Virus record (IMG/VR): IMGVR_UViG_3300022752_000431
Location: 1 to 22,239 of that record
Source of the DNA: a virus
DNA length: 22,239 nt
Strand: one strand, 5' to 3'
Notes under the pieces: model-generated
Database searches by the model: none
Told to the model about the DNA's origin: nothing
Seen by the model: the letters and a program-made list of their open reading frames with translations, nothing else
Shown: positions 2,914-20,485 of the stretch, in pieces
Layout of the letters: the number at the start of each line of letters is the position of its first letter
Position numbering within the stretch: position 1 is the stretch's first letter
Translations under genes and position numbers: made by a program

Positions 2914-4590
2914 TTAAAGAACATTTAATCCATGTACATATACTTTACCGTAGAACTCTGGACGAACCACTTTCTTCGCGTAACGTGTCATGACACCTTT
3001 ACGTGGAGTGAAGTTAACTGGATCATATACTAATGGAGTCATGATAAGTGGAACGTATGGGCTAAATACTGCACCTGTTTCAAGGAATTGACTTCCTCTG
3101 AATCCCATAAGGATTACGTTTTCTTTCATGTATGGGTTTTTGTATACTGTGTATCTGTTATTGATTGCACCAATTTTTTGTACACCGGCAGCAAATTCCA
3201 TTTTGTTACCATCTGTATCAGCTGCAAATCCTGGGATTGACTCAAGGACAGTTGCAACTGCAGGAGAAGTTACAAGGAAGTTAGCACCACCACGTAATGT
3301 TTTTTGGTGAATTTTATTTGATACTTTTTGAAGTTTAGTACCTAAAGTTTGGAACCATCCACCTTGAGTGTTGTAGAATCCATCACCAGCAGATGTTGCT
3401 GCGCCGGCTGCAGATTGTGTAAATCCTGTGCCATTCCAAAAATTATTATTTAATGCTGACCAATACTCAGTTGTTGGAGCTGATGCAATCAACATATCTA
3501 AGATCTCTAAATCAATTTCCATTGATACATACTCAGACAACATTGAAGTCAATTCAGCTTCAGCATCAATTGAATGGTAAGCGTTAAGGTCTTGAGCAAA
3601 TTCAGGTGTCCAAACTGCTTTCAACTTACGTGTTTTAGCAACGATTGGCTCTGATTGAAGCTCTAAGTTAACTTCCGGGATATCAATATCAGTACCTTGA
3701 TTGATTCCTGATGTTCCTGATCCTTTGAATGGATTAGTATCTTCAAAATCACCTCTGGTAATATCTGTTGGTTGTTTGCTATAATTTACATACAATGCAG
3801 ATGCCGCTTTTGCAGCTTGAATTTTAGTAGCGTCAGCTGTTGATACAATAAATGATCCTGTTAAATTAGCATCAACTTTAGTAAATGCTTGTACTGGAAC
3901 AATTTCAGTAGATCCTGATAAGAATGTAAACGATCTAACTGCTAATTTATCTGCATCTGTTGGTAATGCAATTGTTACTTTTTTATAGCTTGATAAAGAT
4001 GCTGAATAATCAGAATCAAAATTTACATCTGATGCATCAGTTATCGTACCTGCACCTGAACCTGTAGATGCTACTGCAGATAAATTTGCTGATGTTATAT
4101 TATTAATTGAATATCCAAATCGACCTGCTCCATAAAGACCACCTGTTGGATCACTTGATGTAGTAGTAACACCAAATAATGAATCGTCAGCATTTGGAGA
4201 ACTAAATGGATCACCTGTTCTGTTCAAGTTATCAGAATCAAATCCTGGTTGAGCTGTACCGTATTTGAAATCTAAATAAAATATAAGTCCTGATGGCAAG
4301 TTCATTGGTTGAACTGAAACGAATTCTTTAGCTGCAAATTCAGCAAAGATTCTTCTTACCAATGGAAGTGCTACACCTGCCCATTCTTCAGATCCTGCTG
4401 CCGTACCTGTAGCTGATGATTCTTTTACCAATTGACGTGCTTGGTTTTCAAGCAATTGAGCCATTCCGGCTTTTTCTGTCTCATTTCTAAGACCTTCTAA
4501 TAGTCCCGTTCTTTCCCATTTATTAACCAAACCTTTAGCGGCTGATCTTTGAGATGCATCTGGACTTTGTAATAATGAATTTAAACTCAT
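2914..4590 (-). CDS. 23: Major capsid protein, gp23-like
   Basis: This 558-residue protein forms the hexamers of the head shell (HK97 fold, T4 gp23 family; T4 protein 521 residues). The family core is clear: VQPMNLPSG at residues 93-101, and a conserved block at 319-362 containing KTRKLKAVWTPEFAQDLNAY and IDAEAELTSML. Between them, residues about 115-300 are rich in Ser, Thr, Gly and Asp and probably include a variable surface insertion. The first 57 or so residues look like the segment removed by the prohead protease; LVKE|SSATG (E57) lies where T4 gp23 is cut, and LLE|G (E32) is an alternative. The ribosome binding site is very strong (AAAGGAGAT), preceded by a run of 11 A. The gene follows the scaffold gene and ends at a terminator. 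Confidence 0.96.
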   Translation of the reverse strand: MSLNSLLQSPDASQRSAAKGLVNKWERTGLLEGLRNETEKAGMAQLLENQARQLVKESSATGTAAGSEEWAGVALPLVRRIFAEFAAKEFVSVQPMNLPSGLIFYLDFKYGTAQPGFDSDNLNRTGDPFSSPNADDSLFGVTTTSSDPTGGLYGAGRFGYSINNITSANLSAVASTGSGAGTITDASDVNFDSDYSASLSSYKKVTIALPTDADKLAVRSFTFLSGSTEIVPVQAFTKVDANLTGSFIVSTADATKIQAAKAASALYVNYSKQPTDITRGDFEDTNPFKGSGTSGINQGTDIDIPEVNLELQSEPIVAKTRKLKAVWTPEFAQDLNAYHSIDAEAELTSMLSEYVSMEIDLEILDMLIASAPTTEYWSALNNNFWNGTGFTQSAAGAATSAGDGFYNTQGGWFQTLGTKLQKVSNKIHQKTLRGGANFLVTSPAVATVLESIPGFAADTDGNKMEFAAGVQKIGAINNRYTVYKNPYMKENVILMGFRGSQFLETGAVFSPYVPLIMTPLVYDPVNFTPRKGVMTRYAKKVVRPEFYGKVYVHGLNVL

Positions 4591-6972: not shown

Positions 6973-7602
6973 TTATATCCTACATTTACCATCTTCGCAT
7001 AAAATCGAAGTAATGATTTCGTTTACTTTTCCGTATTTATTTATTTGTTTATTTTTATTTACTGATTCATTCATTTGCGTAGGACGCATAAAAGCCCCAT
7101 GTGTTGAAGGATTTGATACAAAGTCCCAACAAATTAATTCAAAATCTTCTTGAACTTCAACTACACCTTCATTACGTAATTCTTTAACTGAGCCTAATCC
7201 TCGGCTAGAAATTCCTAATGTTATGCCAGCTTTGAAAAGTGACTTTAAAATATTGCCTGAGGGTGTATCTAATATTTGTACTGCTCCGCATAAATCATCA
7301 CCTTTCCACCATATTTTTAAAACATTGTGTGATACGTTGTTTAAATTTACTACCGATGACTCTGGATGATCCAATTCTCCTAATGCTCGATGTTGATCAA
7401 TATATTCTTGTTGGTATCGGCGACATTCTCTTTCTAAGATTTGTTTTGGATACACGCGACCGTTTTGATTTTTTGCGCCTGCTCTTTGTAAAACTCCTTG
7501 TACAACAAAACCACCAGGTATTCCATATGCAGCACCATTAGATTCATTTAACGAACCTACGGGGTTAAATGGCATATATTCTACTATTAGTTGTTTTGAC
7601 AT
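6973..7602 (-). CDS. 21: Prohead core protease, gp21-like
   Basis: A 209-residue serine protease, nearly the length of T4 gp21 (212). In T4 this enzyme sits in the prohead core, degrades scaffold and trims the capsid protein before packaging. Visible catalytic candidates are H79 (GELDHPES), S132/S133 (GISSRG) and D160 (CWDFVSNPS), in the His-Ser-Asp order of herpesvirus/T4-type proteases. Its own N-terminus has SLNE|S (E20) and its C-terminus QMNE|S, plausible self-processing sites. The ribosome binding site is strong (AGGAGA, five or six bases before ATG). It is placed after two putative core proteins, as in the T4 order 20-67-68-21. Confidence 0.95.
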   Translation of the reverse strand: MSKQLIVEYMPFNPVGSLNESNGAAYGIPGGFVVQGVLQRAGAKNQNGRVYPKQILERECRRYQQEYIDQHRALGELDHPESSVVNLNNVSHNVLKIWWKGDDLCGAVQILDTPSGNILKSLFKAGITLGISSRGLGSVKELRNEGVVEVQEDFELICWDFVSNPSTHGAFMRPTQMNESVNKNKQINKYGKVNEIITSILCEDGKCRI

Positions 7603-7603
7603 A

Positions 7604-8395
7604 TTATTCTCCTAATGATCTAATTCGTTCTGATATTTTTATTAATCGTTCTGATATTTTATTCAATGCTTTTTTAGATGATTCTTTTAATCCTCCATGA
7701 GCAATACCGGATTCCGTTTTTAATCTGCTTGTATATCTAATTGTTTCTTCAATTTCTTTTAGTTTTTGTGCAACTTGTTTTATTGAATCATTTACACGTT
7801 GCTCCGGAGTTTGTTTTGCATTGCCAAATGCAAATGAACGATAACCTTCAATAAGTTGTTCATATCTTCGATCCATTGCTTCTGTTAGTTTTGGCGTTTG
7901 GCTAGGTGTATCTGTTAATGGTATAGAAGGATATTTTGTTACTTTTTTACCTTGCCAATCTACTTCATTTTCAGCAAATGCAAATTTATCCATCCATTCT
8001 TCTTCCTGTGATTCCGGTCTTTGGTATTCTCCGGGCTTATATGTTGGAGGAGTATTAATACCTTCTTTAACTCGTTTATATCCTAACGTTTCTACGGTAT
8101 CGTCATCAGCATTACCAAATGCTTTTGGCGTCATGTATGATCCAGCTCCTGCAGATGTAGATATTTCCTCTAAATCTTCATGATAGCCTTTATAATCACA
8201 ATGCAAACATCCTTCGCCTTCACACTTTACACATTGTTCTTTATTTTGATGGTGTGATCTAGTTGCCTGTTTAATAGCTTTATCTTTAACTCCTAAATAT
8301 TCTTGGCTCGGCGTTTCTTGTTTACCGTCGCCGTCCCAATCTTTTTCATTTAGAGTTTCAAAGCTTTCTTCTATTTGTCGAAGGAATGATTTCAT
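7604..8395 (-). CDS. Putative prohead core protein with Cys cluster and DxDxDG loop
   Basis: A 263-residue protein in the place occupied by T4 core genes 67/68, between portal and protease. I do not recognise a named family. Two features stand out: D19-W-D-G-D-G24 (KDWDGDGKQE), like the first half of a calcium-binding EF-hand or dockerin loop, and a zinc-ribbon-like C55-x2-C58-x4-C63-x2-C66 (CVKCEGEGCLHC) similar to one DnaJ-type CxxCxGxG repeat. The C-terminal 90 residues are helical and charged. TLNE (E17) may be a prohead protease site. Its ATG overlaps the stop of the 283-residue gene (ATGA), so translation is coupled; GAGG lies seven bases upstream. The core role is inferred from position. 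Confidence 0.72.
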   Translation of the reverse strand: MKSFLRQIEESFETLNEKDWDGDGKQETPSQEYLGVKDKAIKQATRSHHQNKEQCVKCEGEGCLHCDYKGYHEDLEEISTSAGAGSYMTPKAFGNADDDTVETLGYKRVKEGINTPPTYKPGEYQRPESQEEEWMDKFAFAENEVDWQGKKVTKYPSIPLTDTPSQTPKLTEAMDRRYEQLIEGYRSFAFGNAKQTPEQRVNDSIKQVAQKLKEIEETIRYTSRLKTESGIAHGGLKESSKKALNKISERLIKISERIRSLGE

Positions 8396-9284: not shown

Positions 9285-11114
9285 TTATAAAATGTTGTTT
9301 TCATCTAACATTGTACCTGAATCTAAATCTTGTTCTGATGATTTAAGTGATTCTGTTATAATTTTAGACGTATTTGATTTATTTTTCAAGTATCTTAAAA
9401 TGTTTTTACCTTCTGCTGTAAATGGTTTTCGTTCCTTAGGTAATGGTTGAAATGCAGTCTTTTGATTTTGCACATCAAATGCTTGATCTAATTCTTTTTT
9501 ACCGGTAGGATCCCAACCGAATGCATTTTTATGTTGTCCAAATTTAATTCCTTCTTTTGGACGTCCACCCGGATCTTTTTCTTCTACATCATCGGAACTC
9601 ATATGCATTGAAGCTAAGTCGTGCGGTGTACCATATGACACTCCTGTTACTGTTGGATCATTGCCTTCTTGTTCAATTTGGTTTTGACGGAAACGAAGTT
9701 TAAGATCTTCAATAACATTGGTTCTTTCTTGAAGCCACTGATCTTCCGACATATTGAATATGAATTCATAAATGTACTTATCTGAAACTAATTTAGAATC
9801 TTTCATTGCATTAGCTAATGTCATTTTTTCAGTCATTAATGCAACTTTTTGCTGATCGTAAATGATTGAAGGAGCTGTTAATTCTAATTCAAATCCAACT
9901 AAATCTTCACCTTCGTATCCCTGAGCATATAAATGTACAATTGCAATTTTATAAAGTTCTGATACTACAATTTTTTGAATACGTTCTATAGTTCTAGCAA
10001 AACGAATATCCATAGATGCTAATGTAGTTTTACCTTCAACTGCTTCTGCATATCCTAAAAATGGTTTAGGAATTTTTAATGCAGCCATCATTTTATCTTT
10101 GATATATTCTAAGTCTTCCGTACCTGTCCAAGTCATTCCTGGCAATGTATCAATAGTTGTTGAAGATTGTCCACCGCGTACTGGTAAATAATAATCTTCT
10201 AACATATTGTTAAGATTGAAACGTAAATTGTAATTTCCTGTTTGTTGATCAATATGTGGAATCTTTTTCATTTTATTGATAATTTGTTCCATAAATGTAT
10301 CAACTTCATTTGGCGGAATATTACCAATATCAATTTTAAAAATACGTTTTTCTGGTGCTCGCATTATTCTGTGAATAAGCATTGCATCTTCCATCATCAT
10401 TAATTTTTGGAACTCTTTACGTGCACCTTCTAACATTGATCTACCATATGGTAAAAAATTTGTATCAGATAACATGCGGAAATGTGCAATTTCAAAAACA
10501 TCATATGCTTCTTTAGCATCAGCCATATGTCTAAATTTAATTACATATTCTCCGGTTTTTTCATCAAATTCTTCATATCGTTCAATTTCATAACTAGAAA
10601 AAGGACGAGCATTTATAATTCCTAATTCATCGACAATATCAATTTTTAAAAAGAAATCGCCATACTTAGTTAAATTGCGTATCCATGTCCACAAATTAAA
10701 TTCAACATTTAATACATCATAAAATAAATTATAAAGTATTTTTTGTATGTTTGTTTTATTTGTTTTGATTGTTAAAATATCACCAAATTGATCTGCTAGA
10801 GTTGATTCATCTGAATATATATCAAGAGCTGCTGATATGATTGGATCTTTATCCATCATTTCGTAATCCGTATATAACTGCATACGATTCTGTTGCATAT
10901 AGTAATTAGAATCATATCCACCGTTCGAATTTGCTCCGGCTTTGTGACGAGATCCATGAAGTCTAGTATATCTGTCCGCAACTTTGCTTTGAGTTAAATT
11001 ACCTGCTCCTTGCAAACGATTGGTGTCGACAACACGAATTTTGTCTTTACCATACATTCTAACAACTACATTTGTATTGAATAGATTCTGTAAACGTTTT
11101 CTTAACGATGCCAT
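9285..11114 (-). CDS. 20: Portal protein, gp20-like
   Basis: A 609-residue portal subunit; in T4 twelve copies form the DNA channel at the head vertex, start head assembly and dock the terminase. The family signature is clear at residues 223-268: YGRSMLEGARKEFQKLMMME, then IHRIMRAPEKRIFKIDIGNI. The upstream block DKDPIISAALDIYSDEST (about 89-105) is also typical. T4 gp20 is 524 residues, so this one has an extra C-terminal tail of about 90 residues, hydrophilic and rich in Lys, Gly and Ser, with IITE|S near the end as a possible protease site. It has its own ATATTTATAT motif 12 bases upstream and no clear SD. It directly follows terminase, without the sheath and tube genes found there in T4. 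Confidence 0.95.
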   Translation of the reverse strand: MASLRKRLQNLFNTNVVVRMYGKDKIRVVDTNRLQGAGNLTQSKVADRYTRLHGSRHKAGANSNGGYDSNYYMQQNRMQLYTDYEMMDKDPIISAALDIYSDESTLADQFGDILTIKTNKTNIQKILYNLFYDVLNVEFNLWTWIRNLTKYGDFFLKIDIVDELGIINARPFSSYEIERYEEFDEKTGEYVIKFRHMADAKEAYDVFEIAHFRMLSDTNFLPYGRSMLEGARKEFQKLMMMEDAMLIHRIMRAPEKRIFKIDIGNIPPNEVDTFMEQIINKMKKIPHIDQQTGNYNLRFNLNNMLEDYYLPVRGGQSSTTIDTLPGMTWTGTEDLEYIKDKMMAALKIPKPFLGYAEAVEGKTTLASMDIRFARTIERIQKIVVSELYKIAIVHLYAQGYEGEDLVGFELELTAPSIIYDQQKVALMTEKMTLANAMKDSKLVSDKYIYEFIFNMSEDQWLQERTNVIEDLKLRFRQNQIEQEGNDPTVTGVSYGTPHDLASMHMSSDDVEEKDPGGRPKEGIKFGQHKNAFGWDPTGKKELDQAFDVQNQKTAFQPLPKERKPFTAEGKNILRYLKNKSNTSKIITESLKSSEQDLDSGTMLDENNIL

Positions 11115-11160: not shown

Positions 11161-12738
11161 TTAAAGTAACCAAGTTAAATTTTCATCATTTGCACCATTA
11201 TTCCATTTCCATGAATCATTTCCTTGGTTTGGTTTGCCGGTGTAAATAACTGGATCTGTTTTTTGAAATTGGGATAATGCACGTTTGCTAAGATCGATTC
11301 CGTGCTGTCGTAGTTTTAAGGATGTATCTCGCAACCATAGTGCAATACAAAACGACATTACTAAATCATCATTATAACCGTTTTGTGCTTGAGCTTTACC
11401 ATTTAACCAAACAAATACAAATAATTCTTGAATAAGACGTTTTGATCTAATTACTGGTGTTCGTTCGCGCATATACATTTCTAATGCAGATATCATTAAT
11501 GGACGTGTACGTGATGTTGTTGATACACCAGGAACCATTTGGGTTTTATCTTTCATATCATAACCTTTTTTAAGTTGTACGTCAACATCAACATATCCGT
11601 CATCTTTATATGTATAAAATAATTTTTCGTAATTTCTATCTAATGCAGGTTGAATTGCCGCCCAACCAATATTAGCATTTTCTATTGCTAATAATGCATT
11701 ATTCCATTCTGTTGCAACCGAAACAAGCATATTACCGAAATCTTTAGGTGGAAGTTTTCCTTTATATTCTGCAACTTGTCGTACGTCTTGTACATCCAAT
11801 ACATGAAATGTTGACCAGTCACCGCCATCGCCTCGAGCAACGTCTGCCACTACTACATAATCTTTTGCATAGTCCGGATATTCCCAAATCCAATATGCAT
11901 TATCATATCCACGACGTTCGATAGGCTCTATGCACTTATTTTCATATTCCATTAATATAGCACCATCTACTACAGTATGTCCGGATGAAATAAAGTCACA
12001 ATCACATTCTTGTGCTGCACCACGTTCACCTAAAAGTTGAGTTTGTTCATCGCGCCATGTTTGATCACGTTCTGGATGTACTGTCCAATGCAGTTTAATT
12101 GTGTGAAATCCGTTGATTTCTTGTTCAGCTTCTGACCATACTGAGTGAAACCAATTTCCTACACCGTTAGGTGTTGATAATACAATAGCACCACCACCTG
12201 TTGATAATGTTGCCTGAGATGCTATCCAAATTTCTTCAATATTACGAATAAATGCTGCCTCATCTATAATAAGCAACGATAATGCTTCTGAACGTGCACC
12301 AGTTGTTGCCGATGATACTGCTTTGATTTGTGAACCATTTTTAAATTTCAAAGAAAGTTTATTGTCGGCTTCAACATTTCCTTTCAACCAACTTGGTAAA
12401 TTTTCGTGCATCACTCGTACTTTTGTTACTAGATTTTTTGCAACTTCTTGTGTTGTTGCAATAACAAGTACGTTAAAATCTTCTTTGAACAACATGCTCC
12501 ATAAAGCAAATCCTGCAGAAAGAGTTGATATTCCTAACTGTCGTGATTTTAATATTACACTGTAACGATTATCACGTAATTCAGTTAATGATGATTCCTG
12601 AAACGGAAATAAATTAAATTTGATCTTGCCTCGTTTAGGATGTTGAATGTAACAATATTGCTTCATGAAAAAAACAGGATCTTTAGCACACATTGCGTAC
12701 TGCTGTTGAATGATCTGTTTTATATTGGGTTGACTCAT
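11161..12738 (-). CDS. 17: Terminase large subunit, gp17-like
   Basis: A 525-residue packaging motor with an N-terminal ATPase and a C-terminal nuclease that cuts concatemeric DNA. The ATPase shows Walker A SRQLGIST (65-72), Walker B LLIIDEAAF (155-163) and the coupling motif LSTPNG (187-192). The nuclease shows D299 (VVVADVARGD), E352 (AIENAN) and D457/D458 (NGYNDDLV), matching the D-E-D acidic set of T4 gp17. T4 gp17 is 610 residues; the shortfall is mainly at the N-terminus. The ATG overlaps the region of the preceding gene's stop by one base of spacing, and no SD is visible, so translational coupling is likely. No small terminase subunit (gp16) gene was recognised next to it; the 214-residue protein is too dissimilar to call. 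Confidence 0.96.
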   Translation of the reverse strand: MSQPNIKQIIQQQYAMCAKDPVFFMKQYCYIQHPKRGKIKFNLFPFQESSLTELRDNRYSVILKSRQLGISTLSAGFALWSMLFKEDFNVLVIATTQEVAKNLVTKVRVMHENLPSWLKGNVEADNKLSLKFKNGSQIKAVSSATTGARSEALSLLIIDEAAFIRNIEEIWIASQATLSTGGGAIVLSTPNGVGNWFHSVWSEAEQEINGFHTIKLHWTVHPERDQTWRDEQTQLLGERGAAQECDCDFISSGHTVVDGAILMEYENKCIEPIERRGYDNAYWIWEYPDYAKDYVVVADVARGDGGDWSTFHVLDVQDVRQVAEYKGKLPPKDFGNMLVSVATEWNNALLAIENANIGWAAIQPALDRNYEKLFYTYKDDGYVDVDVQLKKGYDMKDKTQMVPGVSTTSRTRPLMISALEMYMRERTPVIRSKRLIQELFVFVWLNGKAQAQNGYNDDLVMSFCIALWLRDTSLKLRQHGIDLSKRALSQFQKTDPVIYTGKPNQGNDSWKWNNGANDENLTWLL

Positions 12739-12739
12739 A

Positions 12740-13120
12740 TCAATTTACTAGTTGTGATATAGAAAATGCTGTTAGTATTGCCGTAACGAGTCCGCTTCCG
12801 AACCAAATTCCTTTTGCATCCCACCATTTAGGTTGAAGTTGACGCTGACGTTTAATATATAGATCTATGTTATCATTTAACAATTCTATTTGCTGTTTTT
12901 GATAATCAATTTGCATTGAATCTAATGCTAATAATTTTCTACATGTTTTAATTGCATCTTCTTGTTGTGTTATGATTACATTATTTATACTGTCTGCTTC
13001 CCAAAGTGAATCTAAGGTTTTAGATATTTGTATAATTTCTTGTTCTGTAAAACATGTATCGGGAATATTTTGTGCAAAACTAAATACCGGAAATGATAAT
13101 ATGATTAATAACTTTTTCAT
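12740..13120 (-). CDS. Small secreted, membrane-anchored protein (lysis candidate)
   Basis: A 126-residue protein with an N-terminal signal peptide (MKKLLIILSFPVFSFA|Q, predicted cut after A16), a helical coiled-coil-like middle (about 25-95) with C23 and C60, and a C-terminal membrane segment (about 105-123). The FSFAQ cleavage region is typical of Flavobacteriia and is a main host clue. It would therefore be exported and held in the inner membrane by its C-terminus. The ATG overlaps the stop of the 114-residue gene (ATGA). Two overlapping small membrane proteins with coiled coils just before terminase suggest a spanin- or holin-like pair, but there is no lipobox and no homology I can name, so function is open. 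Confidence 0.75.
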   Translation of the reverse strand: MKKLLIILSFPVFSFAQNIPDTCFTEQEIIQISKTLDSLWEADSINNVIITQQEDAIKTCRKLLALDSMQIDYQKQQIELLNDNIDLYIKRQRQLQPKWWDAKGIWFGSGLVTAILTAFSISQLVN

Positions 13121-13461
13121 GCTTTCTTTTTTCTTCCGCGCTTTTTAGTTTTATTTAAAATATTTTCTTTAGCATCTGCTACAGTTTTAGGTGTTTCGGG
13201 TTGAATTGTTTCTTTTACTTCTTTTGTTTGTTCTATTTGATCAACTAAATCGTCAAGCTCTTGTTTTACTTGAGAACGTTGATCTTCAATAACATCCGTT
13301 TTACCTTGTAATTGATTAATGTTTGAATTGTTCATATCAATCTTTTGATCAATTTTAGATACTTGCTTTTTTTCATGTTTTTTAAAAAATGCAACGAATA
13401 TTGCAAAAAGTGCTAATAGTCCTCCAACTATTAATGCCCAATATTTTTTAATTGTTTTCAT
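13117..13461 (-). CDS. Small membrane protein with coiled coil (lysis candidate)
   Basis: A 114-residue protein with one N-terminal membrane helix (about residues 7-26), a coiled-coil region with regularly spaced hydrophobic residues (about 35-85), and a very basic end (KKRGRKKKA). I choose the ATG at 13461 because GGAG sits six bases upstream (13468-13471); the ATG at 13473 would add four residues and has no such site. The start overlaps the end of the 214-residue gene, and its stop overlaps the next start. The architecture (membrane anchor then coiled coil) is like an inner-membrane spanin, and the neighbour is secreted, but the Lys-rich tail could equally bind nucleic acid on the cytoplasmic side. 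Role uncertain. Confidence 0.75.
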   Translation of the reverse strand: MKTIKKYWALIVGGLLALFAIFVAFFKKHEKKQVSKIDQKIDMNNSNINQLQGKTDVIEDQRSQVKQELDDLVDQIEQTKEVKETIQPETPKTVADAKENILNKTKKRGRKKKA

Positions 13462-14092
13462 CTGTTTCTCCATTAAGTTTATTTAATAATTGTTTTTTAA
13501 ATTTTTCAAATTCTTTTTCTACTTTTTCTTCAAATTCTACTGGAGTCATTTTAGCTGACCAAGTTTCTATTTCTCCTTCAGAATTTGTAACAAATTTAGA
13601 TACATTTGTATATGCATCTTTTAAAAGTTTAATGTCTTGTTCTGCACTACGTAACCATGCTTCGGCATTCTGACGTATACGATTTTTTTCATATTCATCA
13701 TATTTGCCTTGCTTTCTTAAATCATGCTCCATATCAATTGTACATTCATAACACATACCGTTATATTTACGCATTTTTTCATCTAGATGATTTGGCGTTA
13801 AACATGTACATACATCTTTTCTACATTGCGGAAAAGATCGTAATGCATCTCGTATTTCTTGAAATGTTTCTGCATTTTTTGTTTTACGTATACGGAAGCC
13901 ATCTCGTTGTTCAATAACCCAGATATTACCTGCAGCATCCGTTTCTTCCCAGGTATCACCAACTTCATGTCGTTCAGCTAATTTGCCTTTTTGTTTAGCA
14001 TCAGAGAACCCAACAGTTTTTTTGGTTTGAAATTTGTGTTCGCCTTCCAACATTTGTTGGATAGCTTTAATGTTTTGTAACTTTTTACTCAT
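13448..14092 (-). CDS. Hypothetical Cys-rich protein, probable zinc binder, 214 aa
   Basis: A 214-residue soluble protein. Residues 40-70 form a small beta-rich block (RHEVGDTWEE, AAGNIWVIEQRDGF). Five cysteines follow, C90-x4-C95-x-C97 and C114-x2-C117, likely a zinc site, and the C-terminal 90 residues are helical and charged. I recall similar proteins of unknown function from marine T4-like phages, but no named family. It lies between the repeat-containing 325-residue gene (18-base gap) and the membrane pair, in the transcript that leads to terminase. A small-terminase role (gp16) was considered because of the location, but neither the size pattern nor the cysteines favour it. No SD is visible. 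Confidence 0.72.
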   Translation of the reverse strand: MSKKLQNIKAIQQMLEGEHKFQTKKTVGFSDAKQKGKLAERHEVGDTWEETDAAGNIWVIEQRDGFRIRKTKNAETFQEIRDALRSFPQCRKDVCTCLTPNHLDEKMRKYNGMCYECTIDMEHDLRKQGKYDEYEKNRIRQNAEAWLRSAEQDIKLLKDAYTNVSKFVTNSEGEIETWSAKMTPVEFEEKVEKEFEKFKKQLLNKLNGETDENN

Positions 14093-15117: not shown

Positions 15118-17184
15118 TCATCGAGCGTATTTCAATACTCCTAGTATCTGATTAACTGGTGCAAAGGCTCCAGTTAATTTATACGTATTACCTTTATAAA
15201 CAAATACTACGCCTTCAGATGGAACTATAGCATCAAAGCCTCCTAAACGTTCTATGCGTCGTAATTCGTGTTCTAATTTTTTAATAGAGTCTATATTATT
15301 TGATGTTTGTAATTCTTTGATCAATTGAGCAATTTCTTGTTTTATTTCTTGAACTGCTTTGCTAGGATTTGCTGCTAGAAAATTTTCTGCATTACGTAAT
15401 ACTACTGCACCTAACCGTAGAAATATGCTTTCAAATGGCTCCATGTTTTGTTTGTAGTATTGTTTGAATTCTTTTTTATCAAATTCAGTCATCCATGCTA
15501 CGAATTCTGGATTTGTAATTTGTTTTTTAAGATTGGAGATATTTGCAGATTTATCAAAAAAGCCCCAACGATAAATAAGTGCAGATAAAATATCATCTGG
15601 AATATCATATCCTAACTGTTGAGCTTTACTTCTAATTACATCTGCCCACCATGCTCTATGATATTCAGTTACTTGATCCGTGTCTTTTAAGTTGTAACGT
15701 GTTCGTAATTGATCTATTTCATTGAAGAATGCAGCTTGTTGATCTTCAAAATCAGCTACTCTACCAATGCGTACTTGTTGTGGAGGAATAAATGAGAATG
15801 TTTTTTGCATATCTGCATTAGCATCTCGAATTACTCCTTGTAACATTTTACCTCCGGTAAAATCTGTTTGAATCACATTGCCGGCTTCATCATATTCAAC
15901 GAGATTATGAAATTGAAGATGTGCTTTATCATATGATATTACATTTTTAGTTGCAGGAAATATTATTTCCATGTTTGCAAACACTCGACCATTTTTAAAT
16001 ATTTGTTGAAGTTGTTGTGGGTTTAATTTATTAAGTGCACTAGTTAAATCTTCTGCACATGCTCTATATGCTTCTACTACTCGTTTATAACCTTCTGCCG
16101 CTTCAGCTCCATTTTTTTGTATGCTTTCTTGATATTTTCTTTCAAAGTCTGCAACAATTTGTTCTGGCGTCATTGGATTGATAACTGTACCTTTATTACG
16201 AGCAAATCCAGGTTGTCCATTTTTCCATGTAACTTGAATATTTTGACCATCAGTTTTTTCAGTAACAGCTTCTTCAATATCTAAACGGCCTTCTAATGCT
16301 CGAGCAACAATTTCTTTCATATCGCCAAATGTTAATCCATGATCATCATATGGATGTGCCATATGCCCTGCTGCGCCGCCTTCTGTTAATATTCGTTCAT
16401 GTAATGGAACGCCAAATGTTGTTTTTTCGAATCGATCAAAATCATATACAAATTCTTTTCCAGGATTTTTATGTAAGAATTTTTTAAGTTTTGATATTTT
16501 TGCATCATGGCGTTTTTGTTGAGCTACAGTCGGATATCCTTCAATTACTGCATTTACGTCTTCTTGCAGTTGTGAAATCCACCATGCTTTTGAAAATAAT
16601 GCTTCTTGTAGACCGGTTAATATTTGCCATGCATTTTTAACTAATGCTTCTTTATATTGCGGATATGATGCTGCAAATGTTGCATAATCATTGTTTTGTA
16701 ATGCTGTTCTAACTGTAGTTGCAGAAACTGGCGTACCATCTGCATACGTTATAGGATCAACATCAACATTTAATTCCGTTGCATCAATACCACTAGGCAT
16801 CGTACGACCTTTTTTATCTCCAATTGTAATATATTTGTCTACATTTGGAACAAATTCTTTAGCACGAACATAATCATCTCCTTTTGTTGATGCTGCCATG
16901 GCATAATTACCTGTAGCATCTTGCGGTAATGCAAATAGATATTCATATGCTGCTACAATCGGAGAATTATGTTCAGTCGGTTGCATTTCAATTTTAGGAG
17001 AAGTATTTAGTAATTCAAATATTTCCATGGTTTTTTCGCGTGTTATACCATCTCGTTCTTTTGGCCCGATAAGCATAATTACGCGTTCTACATTTGGAGA
17101 TTTTACATAACGTTGAGCTAATGCTAAATGAGCTCCCGTTAATGGTTTAAATCCTCCTGGAAAAAGTACTGTTATTTTATTCAT
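15118..17184 (-). CDS. Nucleotidyltransferase fused to a KxDG ligase-like domain
   Basis: This 688-residue protein carries two enzyme domains. Residues 1-180 are a cytidylyltransferase/NMN-adenylyltransferase-type domain: FPGGFKPLTGAH (8-19) stands for the GxFxPxTxGH nucleotide loop and VSATTVR (153-159) for the ISxTxxR motif. From about 300 it has covalent nucleotidyltransferase (RNA/DNA ligase-type) motifs: K310-T-D-G313 (motif I, the lysine that would take AMP), RNKG (329-332, like Ia), E406 (III), EGVV (657-660, IV) and K669 (V). About 250 residues separate motifs III and IV, much more than in T4 RNA ligases, so an inserted domain is likely. The two halves could link NAD-type metabolism to nucleic-acid repair; substrates are unknown. 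A possible protease site, LTE|G, lies at E268 in the linker. It has its own upstream motif. Confidence 0.82.
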   Translation of the reverse strand: MNKITVLFPGGFKPLTGAHLALAQRYVKSPNVERVIMLIGPKERDGITREKTMEIFELLNTSPKIEMQPTEHNSPIVAAYEYLFALPQDATGNYAMAASTKGDDYVRAKEFVPNVDKYITIGDKKGRTMPSGIDATELNVDVDPITYADGTPVSATTVRTALQNNDYATFAASYPQYKEALVKNAWQILTGLQEALFSKAWWISQLQEDVNAVIEGYPTVAQQKRHDAKISKLKKFLHKNPGKEFVYDFDRFEKTTFGVPLHERILTEGGAAGHMAHPYDDHGLTFGDMKEIVARALEGRLDIEEAVTEKTDGQNIQVTWKNGQPGFARNKGTVINPMTPEQIVADFERKYQESIQKNGAEAAEGYKRVVEAYRACAEDLTSALNKLNPQQLQQIFKNGRVFANMEIIFPATKNVISYDKAHLQFHNLVEYDEAGNVIQTDFTGGKMLQGVIRDANADMQKTFSFIPPQQVRIGRVADFEDQQAAFFNEIDQLRTRYNLKDTDQVTEYHRAWWADVIRSKAQQLGYDIPDDILSALIYRWGFFDKSANISNLKKQITNPEFVAWMTEFDKKEFKQYYKQNMEPFESIFLRLGAVVLRNAENFLAANPSKAVQEIKQEIAQLIKELQTSNNIDSIKKLEHELRRIERLGGFDAIVPSEGVVFVYKGNTYKLTGAFAPVNQILGVLKYAR

Positions 17185-17230: not shown

Positions 17231-20200
17231 CTATCCAATAAAAGCAACACCCCAATTGTCATTGCCATCAAATGTTACAGTTCCTGCAGTAACTCGAGCT
17301 GTAACTATATCATTTACTGCTAAGTTTACTACAGCGCTTACTCCAAAATGACCGGTATTTGTATTTGATTCCCAAAATGCTAATGGAGTACCAGTACCAT
17401 TTTTATAAAGAGCTACTGACGCTAATGATGAGTTTTGTGTTCTGCCTACATACCAAACATGATATAATCCTGCTATTGGACACGTAAATTGTCCAGTTGT
17501 ATTATTATAATAACTTCCTTGATTGTAGTCAACACCTACAGATGATCCTTTTATATCATTTCCGGAACTAGGAGCATATCCAGATGACCCCGTAATTCTA
17601 AAAGCAGGACGGGCAGGCATTATGATTGAGCCATAGCTTAATGTTAAATCACCGGTTTGTAAATTAACCGAGCCTAATTCTGTTGTTGAACTAGCATTAG
17701 TTCCTTTTAATATCCTAAGTCTATCTTGATAAACATCTATAAAAGATGCAGATGTATAACTACCACCTTTTGCTTGTAATCCTAGTTGTCCGCCTTCCCC
17801 AGTACCTCCAGCGCGCGCTGGACCTAATGTTAAAGTATTTTCTGTGATTAATGAATTAGTTCCAATTGAAACACTTCCAGACATTATAGTGCTTCCGGAA
17901 ATTATTACATCGCTTTTAAATGTATGATCTAATGGATGTTCAGTTCCTGCATATGTTAACCATGTCTGTCCCGAAGAACCTCCTGCAACAAATGTAATTG
18001 CTGCATTTTGTGATAATATAACTTTACTAGTAGGGCTAATCGGCAATCCGGAAAATTTATCCGGTGTAAATACATCATATAATTCCGTATCAGATCTATT
18101 CGTTTCTAATGTAATATCTAATTTAGCAGTCGATGATAATGATGGTAGTTTAAATGTTCCAATTGGATATAATAATGCACAATTGATTCTAACACGTCGA
18201 ACTTTTTCTCCACCTAATGATCCATCTAATACAACTCGATATCCCGTTTGACCAAAAGTTACATTAACAGTATATGATTGTAAATAACTTGCAGAATTTG
18301 CAGTTGTAATAGTAACAGTTTTATCGCGAATAATATTAGCTAGAGCCGTACCTGTAAATGTTGCATCATTAGCAAATACATCGCCGCTACTACTAAGCAA
18401 GAAATTGCTAGATGAAATTTCTAATAATCCGTTGCTGCCACTGATATATGACGAAGACGGATTACCAAAAAAGAATTTATCGGTTCTTACATCTATTTCT
18501 GAATCCGCTGTTGAATATCTAAAATAGCTAGCTGTATTTGCATAAAGTTCTAATCCAACGCCGCTATATGCTCCGCCTCCTTTAGTACCAGCACTTCCGG
18601 CTAATGCCGATCCGCTCCACAATAAAAAGCCTGGAAATCCTGCTGCAAATCCTTCATATCCCAATGATCTAACAAAACCTGTATTTTTATATCCACTAAT
18701 TGCTACACCCGATTCTAATGAATCAGCCACATAAAGTGAACCGGTAAGCATTGAATAATCACCATCAATATAGCGATTACCTCCTTGCCATGATTTGTCA
18801 TACATATATGAGATTTGTTTGCTAACAACACCATCGACATTGTAATATTCTAATTTGAATGAAATTTGATTGTTTGCTTTATGCGGCGTATTAATAAGTG
18901 ATCTAATTCTAGTATAATTCGGTGAATATCCAGCATCGTTATCTGTTGTAGTTCGTACATCAGCAATTTGCCATTGTCCTGTCTCTATTACAAAAAGCAA
19001 TGACGCCGTGCCTTCTGCATCAGTTTCAAAATTAAATACCACGTCATCAAACCGCTGTGAATCTGAAGTTACTTCAATTTCGCCAATGCGCTTTCCTAGT
19101 ATTCTAGGCAATTCTTGATTGAAATAATCAGTTGAATCAAATGCTACAGCACTTCCGGAGATGTATACTGCTAAACGCGGATTAAGTCCTGTTGCATCAC
19201 GTGTACCTAATGCATCAATTGTAACTTTATATGATGATGTTGCAATAAATACTCCGGCGTATGTAGGTTTAGTTTCTACAACGAGAACTGCATTACGAGC
19301 TGATATATTAGTTGCACTAGTAATACTCATTGCATTGTTAAGTGATGCTGTCGACCAAGTAAGTGTTGGGGCAACGCCGGTAGTTTTACCTGTGTATGTA
19401 TATGCATCCCAATATGTATCGATAATGCTTTGAGATGTAAATGCACCAATACTTTGATCTGGAAATAATGATGCTGTGCTAGTTACGAATATTTCTGTTT
19501 CTTCTAATTCAACATCATTAACTAATTCCCATGTACCTACAGTACCTTTATTATTTGTATAAACTTTTATGCGAGATACATCACCTGTTGCTGGTTCTAA
19601 TCCTTTAATTTGTATTAATGCAAATGATTGTGAATTTTCTGTTGCAACATACGTAGGTGTTTGTTCATATGTTAATGAAAATGCCGATGCAGCAAATTCC
19701 GTATAGGTGTGTGGAAAAATACTTTGGCTACTATAAACTGTATATTCTCGATCTAACAAAGCCGTAGTGTCGGATAATATCTTTTTTATCGTACTAACGA
19801 AGGGCGTGGATACCACCGGATAATTAGGAGTAGGCGAAGGATTTTGTGGAGATGTAATTGTAATTGTGCCAGTAGCCATATCTCCGGTGAATTTACCTCC
19901 TACAAGCTCTAATGCAGGTGCACCGTTAAGTGTAAATAATTTTACTGTTCCTGTAGTGTAAGTTGGAAATTGTTGACTGCCGGAATAGATTCTATCCAAT
20001 TGTACGCCAACTTGTTCTGATATATCTAGTGTTGGTAATTTAGAAAATATGATTTCAGATACATTTGATACGTTAGGATTTACAGGTACTGTACGACTCC
20101 ATTTTACATTAGCACGACCTTGCCATTCTGTTGGCACCGGTGCACCTTGTATGGTTTGTGCTTCTGCTAAAAGTGTTATGGTGCAGTCGCCAGGTGATGT

Positions 20201-20485
20201 TTCTGAATAAATGTATATTGCAATTACGCGTGATTTATCTTCATCAATATAATCTACAACTTCCGTATAAATTGGATCGCCATTATAATCTAATACTTCT
20301 AGATTTAATAATCCACCTACTCGTAAATTGCTAGGATGCCCGCGTAATTTAAATAGATTTTTACCTGCAGTTAAACGTGTAGGAAATTCAGTTATTTGAA
20401 AATAGTCCGGTGATGTTAATGATGTATCTTCAAAATAAACTGGGATAAATTCTAAACCTTTATAAACTGTTTCTTTGCGTTTCAT
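17231..20485 (-). CDS. Large fibre-like structural protein with C-terminal C1q-like domain
   Basis: A 1084-residue, Ser/Thr/Gly/Asn-rich, beta-type protein with few cysteines and no signal peptide, as expected for a phage fibre or other virion surface protein. The first 180 residues look like a separate attachment part. The middle has many ISGS, WSGSA and SSSG segments typical of fibre shafts, and residues around 880-955 (LGPARAGGTGEGGQLGLQAK, then DVYQDRLRIL) resemble regions I recall in marine phage structural proteins. Residues about 958-1084 fit a C1q/TNF-like jelly roll: PAFRITGS, then YNNTTGQFTCPIAGLYHVWY, VALYKNGT and final WGVAFIG. Such trimeric domains commonly bind ligands, so this is probably the receptor-binding tip. 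It follows gp46 with a 26-base gap. Whether it is a long fibre, short fibre or head decoration is unknown. Confidence 0.8.
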   Translation of the reverse strand: MKRKETVYKGLEFIPVYFEDTSLTSPDYFQITEFPTRLTAGKNLFKLRGHPSNLRVGGLLNLEVLDYNGDPIYTEVVDYIDEDKSRVIAIYIYSETSPGDCTITLLAEAQTIQGAPVPTEWQGRANVKWSRTVPVNPNVSNVSEIIFSKLPTLDISEQVGVQLDRIYSGSQQFPTYTTGTVKLFTLNGAPALELVGGKFTGDMATGTITITSPQNPSPTPNYPVVSTPFVSTIKKILSDTTALLDREYTVYSSQSIFPHTYTEFAASAFSLTYEQTPTYVATENSQSFALIQIKGLEPATGDVSRIKVYTNNKGTVGTWELVNDVELEETEIFVTSTASLFPDQSIGAFTSQSIIDTYWDAYTYTGKTTGVAPTLTWSTASLNNAMSITSATNISARNAVLVVETKPTYAGVFIATSSYKVTIDALGTRDATGLNPRLAVYISGSAVAFDSTDYFNQELPRILGKRIGEIEVTSDSQRFDDVVFNFETDAEGTASLLFVIETGQWQIADVRTTTDNDAGYSPNYTRIRSLINTPHKANNQISFKLEYYNVDGVVSKQISYMYDKSWQGGNRYIDGDYSMLTGSLYVADSLESGVAISGYKNTGFVRSLGYEGFAAGFPGFLLWSGSALAGSAGTKGGGAYSGVGLELYANTASYFRYSTADSEIDVRTDKFFFGNPSSSYISGSNGLLEISSSNFLLSSSGDVFANDATFTGTALANIIRDKTVTITTANSASYLQSYTVNVTFGQTGYRVVLDGSLGGEKVRRVRINCALLYPIGTFKLPSLSSTAKLDITLETNRSDTELYDVFTPDKFSGLPISPTSKVILSQNAAITFVAGGSSGQTWLTYAGTEHPLDHTFKSDVIISGSTIMSGSVSIGTNSLITENTLTLGPARAGGTGEGGQLGLQAKGGSYTSASFIDVYQDRLRILKGTNASSTTELGSVNLQTGDLTLSYGSIIMPARPAFRITGSSGYAPSSGNDIKGSSVGVDYNQGSYYNNTTGQFTCPIAGLYHVWYVGRTQNSSLASVALYKNGTGTPLAFWESNTNTGHFGVSAVVNLAVNDIVTARVTAGTVTFDGNDNWGVAFIG

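Follow-up and report, generated by a model that had tools for sequence, protein, structure and literature searches.

A putative head-packaged precursor of a T4-like phage joining a HIGH-type nucleotidyltransferase to an RNA-ligase-like domain through a candidate prohead-protease site

The internal proteins IPI–IPIII and Alt of phage T4 carry a capsid-targeting sequence, are cut by gp21 and are injected. RNA repair in T4 is known as a response made after infection. RNA ligases such as Rnl1, Rnl2, Naegleria Rnl and the ligase domain of Trl1 share a core fold with motifs in the order I, RNKG, III, IV and V, and their motif V usually holds two lysines (KxK). Kinase, phosphatase and ligase together make up the classical RNA end healing-and-sealing set (T4 Pnkp/Rnl1). 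HIGH-type nucleotidyltransferases (NTases) are found in NadR/NadM and phage NAD salvage, and as the separate cytidyltransferase gene (T4-GC 190) of T4-like cyanophages. The T4 prohead protease gp21 cleaves after L/I-X-E, as stated in the available part of PMC9026906. Phage polyvalent proteins, as described in the available part of PMC5512222, are late products that combine a number of unrelated enzymes in a single chain, which is probably injected and is afterwards divided by a fused zincin-like peptidase; no RNA ligase is reported among them in that part of the paper.

Here, we analysed a window of 22,239 nucleotides from an uncultivated virus, which represents a T4-like myovirus head module with every gene on the minus strand (Table 1). 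A PhoH gene and a gp46-like (SbcC-like) gene are also present. The gene under study has a fibre-like gene on one side and small genes ahead of the terminase on the other. We consider it somewhat better than an even bet that its product is a precursor which is packaged in the head, cleaved by the prohead protease and used to deliver RNA-ligase-type and NTase enzymes at infection, with RNA sealing as the likeliest task of the ligase. According to this model, the precursor would be packed into the T4-like prohead, and a gp21-type protease would cut the linker after (L/I)-x-E, at E194, E208, E263 and above all E268, freeing a HIGH-type NTase and an ATP-dependent RNA-ligase-type enzyme. Both would be ejected with the DNA and be active before phage gene expression. 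The ligase would seal RNA, such as tRNA cleaved by a nuclease of the host's defences, while the NTase may supply NAD or serve some other role; in relatives, the ligase would be assisted by a P-loop kinase and a HAD phosphatase, released from the same precursor or from a neighbouring one. Prediction and comparison support both putative folds, the motifs, the conserved junction and the head-module position, and we infer the packaging, cleavage and ejection of this protein as well as its RNA and NMN substrates.

Table 1. Features of the window discussed in the text (aa, residues of the encoded protein)
Feature	Coordinates	Strand	Residues	Basis
Whole gene (688-aa protein, proposed precursor)	15118..17184	(-)	1-688	Intact open frame, ATG start; full-length relatives 96-58% identical
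HIGH-type nucleotidyltransferase (NMNAT/PPAT-like), predicted	16621..17184	(-)	1-188	Foldseek on predicted structure
GGFKPLTGAH, HxGH-type motif	17128..17157	(-)	10-19	Located in translation
VSATTVR, ISxTxxR-type motif	16708..16728	(-)	153-159	Located in translation
Variable linker	16381..16620	(-)	189-268	Four (L/I)xE sites: after E194, E208, E263, E268
LTE/GG junction; predicted cleavage by the prohead protease after E268, between 16381 and 16380	16375..16389	(-)		Conservation in relatives
KxDG RNA-ligase-like domain, predicted	15121..16380	(-)	269-688	AF2 + VIA-align
Motif I, K310-T-D-G (EKTDG = 309-313)	16246..16257	(-)	310-313	Sequence and 60-row alignment
RNKG (ARNKG = 328-332)	16189..16200	(-)	329-332	Located in translation
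Motif III, E406 within NMEII	15967..15969	(-)	406	Sequence and 60-row alignment
Helical insertion between motifs III and IV	15229..15750	(-)	about 479-652	Secondary structure of model
Motif IV, EGVV	15205..15216	(-)	657-660	Located in translation
Motif V, K669 within YKLTG	15178..15180	(-)	669	Located in translation
Terminase	11161-12738	(-)		
Portal	9285-11114	(-)		
Gene next to protease, MKSFLRQIEE-type N-terminus, possible second head-targeted protein	7604..8395	(-)		N-terminal motif in relatives
Prohead protease, gp21 homologue, proposed cutter	6973..7602	(-)		phrog_207 head maturation protease, E 1.8e-55
Major capsid protein	2914-4590	(-)		

The fused gene described in the initial annotation is real, as a single intact frame of 688 residues holds all of the motifs named there. 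The insertion of about 250 residues that it placed between motifs III and IV was likewise borne out, with 250 residues from E406 to E657. In a 60-row alignment of relatives, K310, D312, G313, R329 and E406 (K46, D48, G49, R65 and E142 of the C half) were invariant and E657, G658 and K669 (E393, G394 and K405) were at least 90% conserved, indicating that the ligase motifs are not due to chance. When codons were compared on the protein alignment with two close relatives, the ligase half showed 84 synonymous and 11 non-synonymous codons of 420 against L007 and 25 and 6 against L006; the corresponding counts for the N half were 38 and 20 (L007) and 19 and 19 (L006). Codon changes in the ligase half are mostly synonymous, and those in the N half are less so. 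The window protein itself gave no significant match in Pfam, NCBIfam or PHROG.

The first half is predicted to be a HIGH-type NTase with an NMN/pantetheine-phosphate adenylyltransferase-like fold, in agreement with the NMN/cytidylyltransferase-type domain first suggested. Foldseek gave nicotinate nucleotide adenylyltransferases as the best matches to the first ~188 residues (E 5.7e-4), and the HxGH-like and ISxTxxR-like motifs are present in a Rossmann-like fold. A PDB profile search reached phosphopantetheine adenylyltransferases only at E 0.43–0.68. The cut-off of PF01467 was reached by relatives L001 and L003 and by marine proteins; the match of the L290 NTase to phrog_3462 (E 3.4e-4) was below cut-off. 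The enzyme is probably NMN adenylyltransferase-like, with NMN as its putative substrate; every substrate-specific model scored below its cut-off.

Additional domains were found in relatives. Five of the six marine relatives scanned begin with a P-loop kinase that exceeds the AAA_33 and Zeta_toxin cut-offs of Pfam, so that kinase, NTase and ligase lie in one chain; the window-type proteins scanned showed no kinase. The linker of L039 contains a HAD domain (PHROG 'polynucleotide kinase', 9e-12), those of L015 and L034 contain a zinc ribbon as read from sequence, and those of L037, L043 and L048 contain another inserted domain. LR756508 has an extra ParB-like domain.

Relatives of the first half also occur in cyanophages. 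The separate NTase gene of L125, used as a query, matched 388 phage records, mostly of T4-like cyanophages. The cyanophage cytidyltransferases are HIGH-type NTases like the N half of the window protein, and all nine examined (S-CAM7, S-ShM2, DSL-LC02, ACG-2014f, S-SCSM1, P-SSM4, P-SSM2, S-N03 and S-RIM8) start with a leader of 10–12 residues ending in LxE or IxE. This leader was absent from RaK2 and Xanthomonas phage X1, and the HTVC008M NTase starts differently. The cyanophage cytidyltransferases differ from the window protein in being encoded by a separate gene, and the S-SCSM1 copy is a virion protein, having been detected in virions by mass spectrometry according to the available part of PMC9602691, with which the sequence-record note agrees. 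A cytidylyltransferase was also reported from S-CREM2 virions, with contamination allowed by the authors, in the available part of PMC10665884. Both papers interpret the protein as an NMNAT, and the leader is not mentioned in their available parts. In these sources, virion presence is reported for relatives of the N half only, and the virion papers leave room for the cytidyltransferase being a contaminant. A window-type NTase profile gave no match to the cyanophage cytidyltransferases at E 10, and by sequence the two groups are tied together only via the L125 gene as an intermediate.

In all seven cyanophage regions viewed, the gene immediately upstream of the cytidyltransferase encodes DUF6267 (PF19782, T4-GC 71), and pelagiphage HTVC008M has DUF6267, a P-loop kinase and an NTase within four genes. 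A leader precedes DUF6267 in HTVC008M and Melnitz-3. Since DUF6267 neighbours the NTase gene in these regions, with a kinase close by in HTVC008M, and the marine relatives fuse kinase, NTase and ligase, sequence comparison suggests that these functions may be carried either as neighbouring genes or as fusions. The DUF6267 sequence has HLEH..ED followed by KWDG, then EG(F/Y)V and, towards the end of the chain, a lysine (K-V), a motif order that would suit homology with the window ligase. In a profile comparison with the ligase half, however, hhalign fell short of significance, giving a probability of 0.7% (E 0.079), and the likeness is kept as a resemblance only; the window protein gave no match to PF19782 at the Pfam gathering score. 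None of the papers searched mentions DUF6267, a possible relative.

The P-loop kinase and the NTase might instead form a NadR-like pair (ribosylnicotinamide kinase and NMNAT) that supplies NAD against NAD-depleting defences, with the ligase as a separate passenger. The nearest families to the NTase of the relatives in NCBIfam and PHROG, all below cut-off, are nicotinamide-nucleotide adenylyltransferases, which agrees with the interpretation in the cyanophage virion papers. However, the kinase matches Zeta_toxin, AAA_33 and seryl-tRNA kinase rather than the NadR kinase, and it belongs to another family and lies at the opposite end of the chain compared with NadR/NadM; no Nudix domain was seen, and a ligase is attached. 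With no kinase in the window-type proteins scanned and with the ligase left unexplained, NAD supply appears rather doubtful as the purpose of the whole set.

The linker between the two halves is the place where domains are inserted in relatives, and its length and content vary freely. It is rich in E and L/I. Junctions were tallied in 284 anchored ORFs, which were reduced to 199 unique ones after duplicates were dropped, with six anchor-less ligase ORFs excluded. Where sequence was present ahead of the ligase (198 unique relatives), P3 was L or I in 194 of 198, P1 was E in 185 of 198 and P1' was G in 198 of 199, while P2 was free. Thirteen of the 198 junctions have no E at P1; M stands there in ten, and broken frames account for two of the thirteen. 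In 62 full-length window-type proteins, drawn from 105 full-length proteins examined and related rather than independent, [LI].E occurred 230 times in the linker versus 97.6 ± 8.6 in shuffles (2.4-fold), and 169 versus 87.9 ± 8.1 times when the junction was left out. The N half was depleted in the motif (48 versus 81 ± 9) and the ligase half was at the chance level (277 versus 266 ± 15). At least one site beyond the junction was present in 61 of the 62 linkers. Since control patterns were raised in the linker too (per 100 residues, 1.89 for E.[LI] and 1.80 for [LI]E versus 2.79 for [LI].E) and the proteins are related, the excess is support, not proof.

Over 169 residues, T4 gp21 and the protease encoded in the window share 36% identity (E 1.4e-31). 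When T4 gp23 is aligned to the window capsid protein, its cut site falls in a gap; therefore, this comparison does not fix the specificity of the phage's own protease. An L/I-X-E motif, as in gp21-cut internal proteins, is present at the would-be N-terminus of the mature ligase, a match at the level of the motif. Judged from these sequences, the ligase junction looks like a prohead-protease cut site.

Stand-alone forms of the ligase point in the same direction. The eight intact cases (L129, L127, L128, L002, L125, L131, L130 and L124), counted after broken frames (L118 and L028) and contig-cut copies had been set aside, all have a short leader ending in E/GG, with L or I at -3 in seven. It is in these leaders that the likeness to the capsid-targeting sequence of T4 IPII/IPIII lies, as found by comparison with the T4 record. 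In L124, leader-type starts were found in 13 of 29 ORFs of at least 80 aa, the ligase included, versus 0.05 in shuffles. They were also found in 7 of 21 ORFs in each of L127 and L128 and in 9 of 22 in L129, and were fewer in L130 (1 of 18) and L131 (3 of 12). The same pattern gave no leader-type starts in L296 and L212.

The (L/I)xEGG stretch could alternatively be the structural start of the ligase domain rather than a cut site, as the GG and the subsequent GHMxHP are nearly invariant and form one continuous stretch. Such a start would not readily fit the fixation of P3 and P1 with P2 free, nor the crowding of additional [LI].E sites in the linker only. Moreover, the first five residues of the C-half model (ILTEG) have pLDDT below 50, so that the model shows a disordered junction, and the stand-alone ligases have merely a short leader before (L/I)xEGG. 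We regard a purely structural role as unlikely.

The precursor proposed here shares the (L/I)-x-E motif with the T4 internal proteins and Alt, and a gp21 homologue is encoded in the window, but it would differ from them as a leaderless two-enzyme (NTase and ligase) precursor with a mid-chain cut. It has no T4-type N-terminal leader, the NTase domain beginning at residue 4, and no leader-type starts were found in four window-type loci (L008, L011, L061 and L103), indicating that window-type phages do not use that leader form at N-termini. This counts against the model, which would have to bring a leaderless protein into the prohead core. Relatives of the gene next to the protease have [LI].E within the first 35 residues in 78 of 79 unique N-termini, whereas three module neighbours showed no leader (p325, 0 of 69; p118, 1 of 75; p214, 8 of 181). 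Compared with the polyvalent proteins, which carry their own cutter, the window protein gave no peptidase match.

The two halves occur as separate genes in LR756500, L125 and the Lak phages. Together with the protease-like joint, this separability makes it more likely that the fusion serves co-packaging than catalysis. It also speaks against the earlier suggestion that the fusion implies shared chemistry, such as NAD-dependent ligation or NAD-cap chemistry. An uncut bifunctional enzyme of the cytoplasm, made late in infection, with an NTase that provides or consumes NAD(P) or some other adenylylated metabolite and a ligase that either draws on this metabolite or acts in RNA repair, would account for the intact motifs of both halves, the single frame in most relatives and the resemblance of the first half to NMN/NaMN adenylyltransferases. 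It is nevertheless distinctly improbable in view of the separate halves, the protease-site-like junction and the free variation of the linker; furthermore, a location among head genes would be odd for an early metabolic enzyme.

The C half is predicted with confidence to adopt an RNA-ligase core fold with a large helical insertion. Its model, obtained with AF2 for this half alone on a diverse 60-row alignment, has a pLDDT of 89.2 and a pTM of 0.86, whereas the ligase half was poor in the prediction of the whole protein (pLDDT 67, pTM 0.34). In Foldseek, the leading PDB matches were T4 Rnl1 and Rnl2 together with RNA ligases from archaea and fungi (best E 0.001). In VIA-align, 30 of the best 31 of 50 PDB rows were RNA ligases, the lone exception being titled putative DNA ligase, at Z 8.8–6.9, where the program's own note describes a Z near 8 as middling. 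The top row was the Naegleria RNA ligase (Z 8.8, 4.2 Å over 188 residues), and the aligned range, model residues 1–418, covers the KTDG and EGVV/K669 segments. The most matched families in the sequence libraries were RNA_ligase (PF09414; 14 of 60 members, all weak, best E 1.9e-4) and the T4 Rnl1 family phrog_562 (15 of 60 members, all weak), with no match of the window protein to either. A PDB sequence search with the ligase profile returned chance matches only. The RNA-ligase call is persuasive because the top rows are nearly all of one family and the sequence libraries independently name the same family.

With a motif I lysine, the motif order I–III–IV–V and the nucleotidyltransferase core fold, the C half has the features of the RNA-ligase superfamily. 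It differs from Rnl1, Rnl2, Naegleria Rnl and Trl1 in a helical subdomain of ~170 residues between motifs III and IV, in ending after motif V and in the form of that motif (KxTG). The initial annotation called the ligase-like domain complete; every motif is indeed there, but no C-terminal domain follows motif V, as the chain ends 19 residues past K669, and motif V has a single lysine (K669-L-T, KLTG). An NAD-dependent DNA ligase was rejected, as the window protein has no Ia NAD-binding domain and no OB-fold match. A ligase acting on nicked phage DNA after injection, and not on RNA, would bring an early benefit and would use a core fold common to DNA ligases (Z 6.7–5.1 for the others in VIA-align), but is very unlikely, since RNA ligases outscore them (Z up to 8.8), no OB-fold domain lies past motif V and the sequence libraries favour RNA ligase families.

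As kinase, phosphatase and ligase form the classical set, the ligase most likely serves RNA repair. RNA repair had already been raised in the initial annotation, and the kinase and HAD-phosphatase domains of relatives strengthen this idea, which we consider a good guess as regards the RNA substrate. We tentatively extend it, at rather less than even confidence, to a virion-borne polyprotein kit of kinase, NTase, HAD phosphatase and RNA ligase that would be cut by the protease and injected to repair tRNA, or other RNA, cleaved by the host, starting in the first seconds of infection and before phage gene expression. To our knowledge, no virion-delivered RNA ligase has been described before, and such a kit would be the first. 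The initial annotation knew of no characterised enzyme with this layout, and none turned up in our literature searches on the domain layout and on RNA ligases carried in virions. If the model is true, RNA repair would be moved to the moment of DNA entry, head-maturation proteolysis would be newly used for processing a multi-enzyme precursor, and (L/I)xE in a leader or linker would offer a simple rule by which to predict which proteins uncultured T4-like phages inject. If the family is packaged, this would also help to explain the recurring NMNAT-like proteins in cyanophage virions.

The gene is a member of a family that is very abundant in uncultivated T4-like phages and essentially uncharacterised, and it is located just upstream of the terminase. 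When uncultivated viral contigs were scanned with the window protein alone, 50 relatives were found among 56 stretches, and an alignment-based scan gave at least 558 relatives among the 599 stretches listed. Scans with the more distant Mel-JY01 protein and with a two-row alignment of distant forms gave at least 304 relatives among 315 stretches and 114 among 155, respectively; none of 60 stretches was confirmed with L125. A terminase was present in 73 of 80 loci of at least 9 kb in the first set and in 51 of 60 such loci numbered L123–L291 (L124 and L125 are counted in both), and it lies downstream of the gene on the same strand wherever gene order was given. In prokaryote contigs, a relative was encoded in 3 of 72 stretches, and two of these sequences (L124 and L125) look like phage sequence from their gene content. 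Among 50,697 phage records, the window protein matched only 18. Fifteen of these are Lak phages with the first half only, and the ligase half was matched in the remaining three, namely Microcystis phage Mel-JY01 (PP395634), the sole annotated isolate in which the gene was found, and two uncultured huge phages. The Mel-JY01 relative is annotated as 'cytidylyltransferase like protein'.

L124, L127, L128 and L129 are among the relatives that carry the ligase as a stand-alone gene with a short leader, an N-terminal stretch ending in E that resembles the T4 capsid-targeting sequences cut by the prohead protease gp21. Across these four entire loci, short genes are arranged in arrays with nearly identical MKSIxxYIxE-type leaders, which were present in 13 of 29 ORFs in L124, 7 of 21 in both L127 and L128, and 9 of 22 in L129. 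These arrays probably represent large sets of head-packaged proteins within one phage group, and the MKSIxxYIxE-type leader may offer a means of listing the injected proteome.

In cyanophages, DUF6267 (T4-GC 71) may be an overlooked ligase. The family displays the ligase-like motifs KWDG and EG(F/Y)V and a late lysine in L294, L295, L306, and L308–L311, where a cytidyltransferase gene adjoins it. A head-targeting-type leader was present in the cytidyltransferases of L294 and L295, the two that were read.

Near the gene, the 214-aa protein was retained in 74/80 loci of at least 9 kb and in 48/60 of a second set, numbered L123–L291. The two small genes were kept beside it in 66/80 and 44/80 loci; one has a signal-peptide-like start and the other a membrane helix near its N-terminus.

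Features flanking the gene in the window
Feature	Position	Evidence
Two small genes ahead of terminase	12740-13473	
214-aa protein	13448-14092	Cysteine cluster
Fibre-like protein, C1q-type domain at its end	17231-20485	Pfam C1q, E 5.3e-9

Altered forms were also observed. The gene is interrupted close to the linker/ligase junction in L054 (8842-9616), and HNH-endonuclease-like residues precede the ligase; judged from sequence alone, the split appears to be due to an inserted homing endonuclease. The nucleotidyltransferase of L003, an uncultured huge phage, has a ParB-like domain (3471-3900) fused ahead of it; a similar domain occurs in Pseudomonas F116-type and Aeromonas phages.
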